A stretch of 35,215 nt of DNA, from the NCBI GenBank assembly GCA_030665585.1, contig DAOUZN010000003.1, positions 1 to 35,215 of the forward strand, in the 5' to 3' direction. Every line of letters starts with the position of its first letter. Within the stretch, counting starts at the first letter, position 1. The notes beneath the pieces were generated by a model. It saw only the letters and a program-made list of their open reading frames with translations. It searched no databases and had not been told where the DNA came from. Shown piece after piece: positions 1-28,269 of this stretch. Origin of the DNA: Deltaproteobacteria bacterium (GTDB taxonomy: Bacteria; Desulfobacterota; Desulfobacteria; Desulfobacterales; C00003060). The translations under genes and the position numbers were made by a program.

Positions 1-160
1 CGACATTGAACGTTTTGGGATAAAGGCACTTGAGATATTCTGCGTTAAAAAATGCTAACTGTTTGAGGGCGTTAGCCCGAGTTTTAGCATTTTAGCTGAA
101 TATCTTAAGGGCCCCCAAAATGTTCACGGAGTGAGTAAAATTGACTTTTTACGAAACCAT
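1..160 (+). repeat. Copy 1 of a ~175-bp palindromic MITE-like element, truncated by the left window edge
   Basis: Starts inside the element (CGACATTGAACGTTTTGGGATAAAGGCAC...) and ends ...GTGAGTAAAATTGACTTTTTACGAAACCATCA; near-identical to 6928-7087 and to the reverse complement of 27110-27272. Confidence 0.9.
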
Positions 161-180
161 CATATTTCCTTATTCAAAAA

Positions 181-6850: not shown

Positions 6851-6906
6851 CACCCACAGGGGAAATAGGTTAGCAAAAATTTTCTGTTTCTGTAAGTTCG
6901 GCAGCT

Positions 6907-7087
6907 TCGTAAAAAGTGTTTTGCGAACGACATTGAACATTTTGGGATAAAGGCACTTGAGATGTTCAGCGTAAAAAATGCTAACTGTTTGAGGGCGTTA
7001 GCCCGAGTTTTAGCATTTTAGCTGAACATCTTAAGGGCCCCCAAAATGTTCACGGAGTGAGTAAAATTGACTTTTTACGGAACCATC
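6907..7087 (+). repeat. Copy 2 of the ~175-bp palindromic MITE-like element
   Basis: TIR-like ends TCGTAAAAAGT... / ...ACTTTTTACGG; internal imperfect palindrome; near-identical to copies 1 and 3. Confidence 0.9.
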
Positions 7088-7110
7088 AAGTTTCGGCGAG
7101 GTGCCCCTGC

Positions 7111-27062: not shown

Positions 27063-27109
27063 CGAAGCCGCCCATGTTGAGCTGTAGGCTGCCGTGTATG
27101 CATAAAAGA

Positions 27110-27292
27110 TGATGGTTTCGTAAAAAGTCGATTTTACTCACTCCGTGAACATTTTGGGGGCCCTTGAGATATTCAGCTAAAATGCTAAAACTCGGGCTAA
27201 CACCCTCAAACAGTTAGCATTTTTTAACGCTGAATATCTCATGTGCCTTTATCCCAAAATGCTCAATGTCGTTCGCAAAACACTTTTTACGA
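27110..27292 (-). repeat. Copy 3 of the ~175-bp palindromic MITE-like element (inverted relative to copies 1 and 2)
   Basis: TGATGGTTTCGTAAAAAGTCGATTTTACTCACTCCGTGAACATTTTGGGGGCCC...GCTCAATGTCGTTCGCAAAACACTTTTTACGA is the near-exact reverse complement of 6907-7087. Confidence 0.9.
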
Positions 27293-27327
27293 GTCTGTCA
27301 AAGGTAGGCGGAGAAGGGGGGACAATT

Positions 27328-28269
27328 TTGAAGGCATTGGTGACAGGGGCAGCAGGGTTTATCGGGTCCCATCTGAGTGAATACCTGATTGAAAAGGGAT
27401 TGAGGGTCGTGGGTATCGATAGTTTTATGGATTACTATCCCAGATCTATAAAGGAAACAAATATTGCCGGGATGAGCAGCGATGAGCATTTTGAGTTCAT
27501 AGAAGGGAGTCTTCTAGACGTCGACTTGTCAAAGCTTTTAGATGGCGTTGATGTTGTGTTTCATCAAGCAGCTCAAGCCGGCGTGCGGGCGAGCTGGGGC
27601 CAGAGCTTCAAGATCTATACCGACAACAATATCCTTGCCACGCAGATGCTCCTTGAGGCGTGCAAAGAAAGCCCGGTCGAAAAATTCGTTTATGCCTCCT
27701 CCTCTTCCGTTTACGGAGATACAAGAGATCTGCCCATGAGGGAATCGTCCCTGCCGTATCCAGTCTCACCATACGGTGTTTCAAAGTTGGCTGCCGAACA
27801 CCTTTGCTGTCTATACTACAGAAATTTTGGGATACCAACGGTGTCACTCCGATATTTTACGGTCTATGGCGCCAGGCAGCGGCCGGATATGGCCTTCCAT
27901 CGTTTCCTGAGATGGGCGTTGGAGGGCAGCGCCCTTGAGGTATATGGGGATGGCCGTCAGAGCAGGGACTTCACTCATGTGGACGACATCGTGGAAGCCA
28001 ACTGGCTGGCCTTGGAAAAAGGTTTGCCTGGAGAAGTCTTCAATGTTGGAGGAGGCTCTCGGGTCACCTTAAACGAGGTCATCGAGATGATGAAAGCGAT
28101 GGTGGACCAGGAGCTTGAGGTACATTATGAGGGTGTACAAAAAGGGGACGTGCGACACACCTTCGCGGACATAACCAAGGCCGAGAACAAACTGGGCTAC
28201 AAGCCGAAGATGTCCATTCAGGATGGGCTCCAGAGGGAATATGAGTGGATTCAGAGTCTGGTCAAATAG
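27328..28269 (+). CDS. NAD-dependent sugar epimerase/dehydratase (extended SDR; UDP-glucose/UDP-glucuronate 4-epimerase-like)
   Basis: KALVTGAAGFIGSHLSEYLIEKG, YASSSSVYGD, YPVSPYGVSKLAAEHL. TTG 27328 with a purine-rich SD is preferred; the track's upstream extension is translated repeat copy 3. Confidence 0.92.
   Translation: MKALVTGAAGFIGSHLSEYLIEKGLRVVGIDSFMDYYPRSIKETNIAGMSSDEHFEFIEGSLLDVDLSKLLDGVDVVFHQAAQAGVRASWGQSFKIYTDNNILATQMLLEACKESPVEKFVYASSSSVYGDTRDLPMRESSLPYPVSPYGVSKLAAEHLCCLYYRNFGIPTVSLRYFTVYGARQRPDMAFHRFLRWALEGSALEVYGDGRQSRDFTHVDDIVEANWLALEKGLPGEVFNVGGGSRVTLNEVIEMMKAMVDQELEVHYEGVQKGDVRHTFADITKAENKLGYKPKMSIQDGLQREYEWIQSLVK

Follow-up and report, generated by a model that had tools for sequence, protein, structure and literature searches.

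The repeat present in three copies in the window, i.e. the whole 35,215-nucleotide stretch of DNA that was analysed, is, with a probability of about 90%, a high-copy non-autonomous MITE that would be moved in trans by the DDE transposase of an approximately 1.9-kb, IS1182-related insertion sequence (IS) carrying the same ends. The window corresponds to one entire contig (G000:C38) of a 1.88-Mb, 172-contig, 83%-complete MAG. A non-autonomous MITE had been proposed in a preliminary description of this DNA, and the proposal is supported by copy number, terminal inverted repeats (TIRs), target-site duplications, empty sites and the existence of an IS with the same ends. The element represents a new MITE family with a probable mobilising IS; it is ordinary in kind, and what is unusual is the end-swapped hairpin core that it shares with other MITEs. 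Abundant intergenic repeats of this order, for which no description was found in the open-access literature searched, are thereby tied to a specific candidate transposase, a link that makes their mobilisation directly testable. In addition, they provide a clear case of MITEs with unrelated ends and one interior, which bears on the origin of MITEs and on selection for hairpins.

Measured between the target duplications, the element is 188-189 bp long and is bounded by imperfect TIRs of approximately 19 bp, GAYRRnnYTCGTAAAAAGT(C), its outermost sequence being GACAGAC-TCGTAAAAAGT ... ACTTTTTACGA-AACCATC. The ends had rightly been described as TIR-like, but the TIR begins 7 bases outside TCGTAAAAAGT, and the element is slightly longer than noted, by approximately 7 bases on the left, giving limits of 6900-7087 for copy 2 and 27111-27299 for copy 3. 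Besides these outer 7 bp, the preliminary description omitted the duplication, the partner IS and the hairpin common to other end types. All three copies that it listed in the window were recovered.

Copy 1 (1-161, plus strand; 95% sequence identity to copy 2) is cut at base 1, its left part missing at the contig edge, a truncation caused by an assembly break at the repeat. Its right TIR was matched on the minus strand at 144-162 by scanning with the terminal-repeat pattern, and its right target duplication, ATATTT, was placed at 162-167 by analogy with the other copies, the left partner being absent from the assembly. Repeats coincide with many contig ends of the MAG; several contigs, for example, terminate 123 bp from a TIR.

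Copy 2 (188 bp, 6900-7087, plus strand) is flanked by a histidine-kinase gene and lysS. Its left TIR, GGCAGCTTCGTAAAAAGT (6900-6917, plus strand), in which the initial bases have diverged from GACAGAC, is preceded by the target-site duplication AAGTTC (6894-6899). The right TIR (7070-7087, minus strand; ACTTTTTACGGAACCATC as read on the plus strand), identified by a pattern match with one mismatch, is followed by AAGTTT (7088-7093), identical to the left duplication at 5 of 6 positions. Using alignment and pair counts, the central core was delimited at 6975-7019 on the plus strand, where the stem AAAATGCTAA/TTAGCATTTT encloses CTGTTTGA-GGGC-GTTA-GCCC-GAGTT; the core covariance model matched at 6974-7020.

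Copy 3 (189 bp, 27111-27299, minus strand), with lpxK on one side and an NAD-dependent epimerase-like gene on the other, is bordered by the target duplications AAAGAT (27105-27110; left as read on the plus strand) and AAAGGT (27300-27305), again with 5 of 6 positions identical. The longest open reading frame of the epimerase-like gene (27241-28269) starts at an ATG within this copy, so that an automatic annotation may place the gene start too far upstream, within the MITE; the native start of the gene is likely a TTG slightly downstream, near 27326.

The whole element folded into one long hairpin with interruptions, with an energy of −82.3 kcal/mol and, relative to 200 dinucleotide shuffles, a z of −11.8. 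A long hairpin had been noted for the interior, and the claim that it encodes no transposase was borne out, as no transposase open reading frame is present inside it.

Following BLASTN against the source genome, at least 40 full or edge-cut copies with 92-97% identity were obtained, in agreement with the prediction of many genome copies (40 of 91 candidates were scored; genome copy counts are lower bounds from a limited number of scored places). With the TIR pattern TGAYNNNNTCGTAAAAAGT and at most one mismatch, 132 matches were counted in the genome versus 0 for the reversed pattern. All 28 mapped copies were intergenic, none lying within a longer open reading frame. Related copies were present in 25 of 60 relatives, other families included, and the exact end pattern TGAYRRNYTCGTAAAAAGTC occurred in 92 of 146 genomes of the order, with a maximum of 553 ends per genome. 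Named contigs bearing an end of this type, hereafter type A, were mostly from Desulfobacterota MAGs; a search of the plasmid collection with the element gave no match.

Target duplication was analysed in 152 elements with paired ends, the 6-bp duplication being defined as stopping immediately before GA... and resuming immediately after ...TC. It was exact in 64 of these elements (shuffled mean 1.8, maximum 7). At the 29 copies scored in the source genome, the duplication was exact in 12 (shuffled mean 0.5, maximum 4) and mismatched at two or more of the six bases in 11. The preferred target was ANNNNT (A first, T last), and given this A/T preference, ends of the form TGA...TCA with a 4-bp duplication would appear identical to a 6-bp duplication. 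Five elements deviating from A....T deviated identically on both sides (AAACAA, ATGAAA, TTGTTT, AATTAA and TTCTTT), which sets the duplication at 6 bp. A duplication of 4 or 5 bp, the first estimate, was dropped after this test on deviating copies.

At the site of copy 2, upstream of lysS, the element was missing from 18 further species of the genus, 13 of which also kept the neighbouring histidine kinase, and in L294 and L295 the lysS intergenic sequence aligned on either side of the insertion point. Similarly, the lpxK-epimerase site of copy 3 was empty in 8 relatives having both neighbours. Wherever other species of the genus allowed an assessment, both sites were empty, which excludes fixed regulatory elements at these two positions. 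The checks suggested by the preliminary description thus yielded a significant 6-bp duplication and two window sites that are empty in relatives; copies restricted to the window and an orthologous position in all relatives, which it had named as arguments against mobility, were both looked for and neither was observed. In another species (G015), a different MITE with GAGACCTTTGCATAAC ends and the same core (L304, approximately 60-320 bp upstream of lysS) occupies the lysS intergenic region in which copy 2 lies in the window. In three relatives (L387, L389 and L390, from G020, G011 and G018), the lpxK match crosses one in-frame TAG.

A transposase with matching TIRs, for which a search had been recommended, was found on an approximately 1.9-kb IS in related bacteria outside this genus. 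By scanning end-rich genomes for DDE_Tnp_1, a locus (L248) was obtained in which a 577-aa transposase with an intact frame is bounded by GACAGCTTCGTAAAAAGTC...GACTTTTTACCAGCGTGTC and the duplication AACCTT. A MITE with the same ends directly adjoins this IS, with AACCTT at all three borders. The two stand in tandem at one AACCTT site (L248:414-2450), and this MITE lacks the core, having a GTCATTCCCGCGAAAGCGGGAATCC-type palindrome as its interior. Homologues of the L248-type transposase were present in 69 of 390 genomes of the order. Full-length loci measured 1.88-1.92 kb and mostly had the same ends as the MITE; exact 6- or 7-bp duplications were found at 14 loci.

The partner transposase is of the DDE type, distantly related to IS1182 and approximately 530-600 aa long, and contains the domains PF13751, PF01609 and PF05598; residues D152, D356 and E481 were invariant across 12 homologues. 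Against the NCBIfam IS1182 model (NF033551) it scored 158 bits, below the cut-off of 270, and it was therefore named IS1182-related and not IS1182; the match to ISNCY_1 was weak (71 bits, cut-off 325). The 1.9-kb IS is the probable autonomous partner of the MITE, and the L248-type transposase is its putative mover. IS1634 was rejected as partner: 30 loci were without MITE ends, and the IS1634 ends differ.

The L248-type transposase was not found in the source genome, an 83% complete MAG, and a full-length version was not found in the other members of the genus searched, so that the MITE is only putatively mobile there at present. TIR pairs 0.5-4 kb apart were also inspected on the 115 TIR-bearing contigs of the genome; the long pairs enclosed housekeeping genes and no transposases. 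We infer that the partner transposase has been lost from this genus or is unsampled in it; the MITE may now be stranded there, or the MAGs of the genus may simply not include the IS.

In the proposed mechanism, the transposase would bind the GAYRRnnYTCGTAAAAAGTC ends, cut, and then join the element ends to AT-rich intergenic ANNNNT sites, where a 6-bp, sometimes 7-bp, stagger would give rise to the target duplication. The long hairpin interior would be a passenger, swapped between elements of different ends.

The centre of this interior, the apical core ACTGTTTGAG-hairpin-CGAGTTT, was matched by its covariance model in 44 of 146 genomes of the order, some of which had no or almost no type-A ends. 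The 27-nt core, (A/G)CTGTTTGAG-SS..GTTA..SS-CGAGTT(T/C), lies within an 8-10-bp stem and forms a conserved hairpin module, in which an internal loop of constant sequence (CTGTTTGA...GAGTT) surrounds a stem and tetraloop that covary. It occurred inside elements of at least five unrelated TIR types, namely type A and at least four others (ends GAAGCYRTTTCAAAACC, GAGGCTGTCGAAAAACTC, GAGACCTTTGCAYAAC and GGCTCTTATGGCTTCCG), with GGTCTCGCGGGAGGCC and GTAACTATTCAG as further candidate core-bearing ends. For the GTCGAAAAACTC ends (TIR-D), a separate IS1182-family IS with matching ends was found in the same genus (L244; 311 bits, above the cut-off). The inner 105 nt were 93% identical between the type-A elements L060/L359 and L046, which has TIR-D ends, and the outer parts were 54-58% identical, not far above background (shuffled baseline of 47%, inner part). 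From such near-identical interiors between near-background outer parts it follows that ends have been swapped around a common interior.

The core stems covaried strongly: among 33 distinct cores, 97% of the cells were paired and 9 of 14 pairs had changed on both sides, compared with at most 56% paired and 3 two-sided pairs in slid controls. In L053, L180 and L380, the GGGC/GCCC apical stem is swapped for non-pairing sequence (e.g. GGGGCCTGCGAC), the flanking loop and outer stem being kept. In L070, L073, L304 and L033 (minus strand), an extra GC-rich hairpin (AGCGCAA...) follows immediately 3′ of CGAGTTT, at a constant position.

Type-A ends also occur on elements lacking the core. In G040, 553 type-A ends were counted with zero core matches, and type-A MITEs of 83 bp and 154 bp were without it, so type-A ends can spread in the absence of the core. 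G040 is a relative of the source genome in which core-less elements have expanded to an extreme degree, its 553 exact TIR ends being spread over 4.3 Mb. The 83-bp minimal elements, with the same TIRs and a GTCCCGACNNGTCGGGA hairpin, were located in the relative G001 at L065:501-583, L066:509-591 and L067:293-375.

Stability of the fold and covariation of the core stems between element families would also be compatible with fixed regulatory or RNA elements, such as a terminator, an RNase III site or a structured 5′ leader, maintained at their positions because selection acts on the folded transcript. This explanation is nevertheless very improbable, and as the main account of the copies it is largely refuted. 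The sites are empty in relatives and target duplications are present; moreover, a scan of copy 2 detected no terminator-like or promoter-like site, an Rfam search of the window gave no match, and the orientation of the copies relative to neighbouring genes was inconsistent. An excess of G:U over A:C among single stem changes in the source genome (26 to 11, p = 0.02) initially spoke for it, but was not replicated in three other groups (23/23, 28/29 and 17/9; pooled 68/61, p = 0.6), and strand-specific RNA selection on the core was withdrawn since the excess failed in these groups. Mobilisation of a REP/BIME-type element by a Y1 (RAYT) transposase can be given hardly any weight at all. The genome does hold three Y1_Tnp genes, and the apical hairpin resembles REPs in its shape, small size and many copies. 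However, none of the three genes had a core or TIR within 1.5 kb, no RAYT adjoined the copies, and REPs are without the TIRs and 6-bp duplications found in this element; the duplications refute Y1/RAYT as mover of the whole element. An integron attC site (GTTRRRY/RYYYAAC boxes) was likewise considered and rejected; the hairpin reads GTTAGCC, and its loop varies (GTTA, GTAA, CTTA).

A further possibility supplements the MITE reading and does not replace it: the inner hairpin may be a separately selected module that was acquired by unrelated MITE families, the TIRs being vehicles and the core their cargo. Hypothetically, such a module might bind a factor of the host or of the transposon, or serve as a hairpin in the processing of transcripts. 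The spread of the core over 44 genomes and at least five end types, the contrast between inner and outer parts in the TIR-A and TIR-D elements, and the combination of a fixed loop sequence with covarying stems all speak for such a module. Against this, strand-specific RNA selection was not seen within families, the core is dispensable for amplification in G040, and the covariation could reflect palindrome-correcting mutation or descent from few source elements. Selection of the hairpin as a separate module is hence only tentatively entertained, and it is equally doubtful that the core is a transferable cargo of at least five unrelated TIR types across the order that is useful to the elements or their hosts.

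The element resembles bacterial MITEs/MICs derived from IS in being short, in having TIRs and a target duplication and no open reading frame, and in its high copy number, intergenic location and the existence of an IS with the same ends. It differs from them in its interior, a long hairpin of several parts with a core that also occurs in MITEs with other ends. ERIC/IRU, Correia and NEMIS are also intergenic repeats of more than 100 bp with inverted ends, a long hairpin and many copies. They differ from the present MITE in ends, host and duplication, and here a partner transposase was identified.

The partner IS presumably fits best in the ISDol1 group of ISfinder, including its 6-7-bp duplication. 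It shares with IS1182 and ISNCY/ISDol1 a length of approximately 1.9 kb, an occurrence mainly in Desulfobacterota and the matches to IS1182 and ISNCY_1. ISDol1 is listed by digIS as an ISNCY subfamily (PMC8147514), and a 4-bp duplication has been reported for ISPse1, an IS1182 element of Paracoccus (PMC3281130). The partner IS departs from IS1182 in scoring below the 270-bit cut-off and in generating a duplication of 6-7 bp and not 4 bp.
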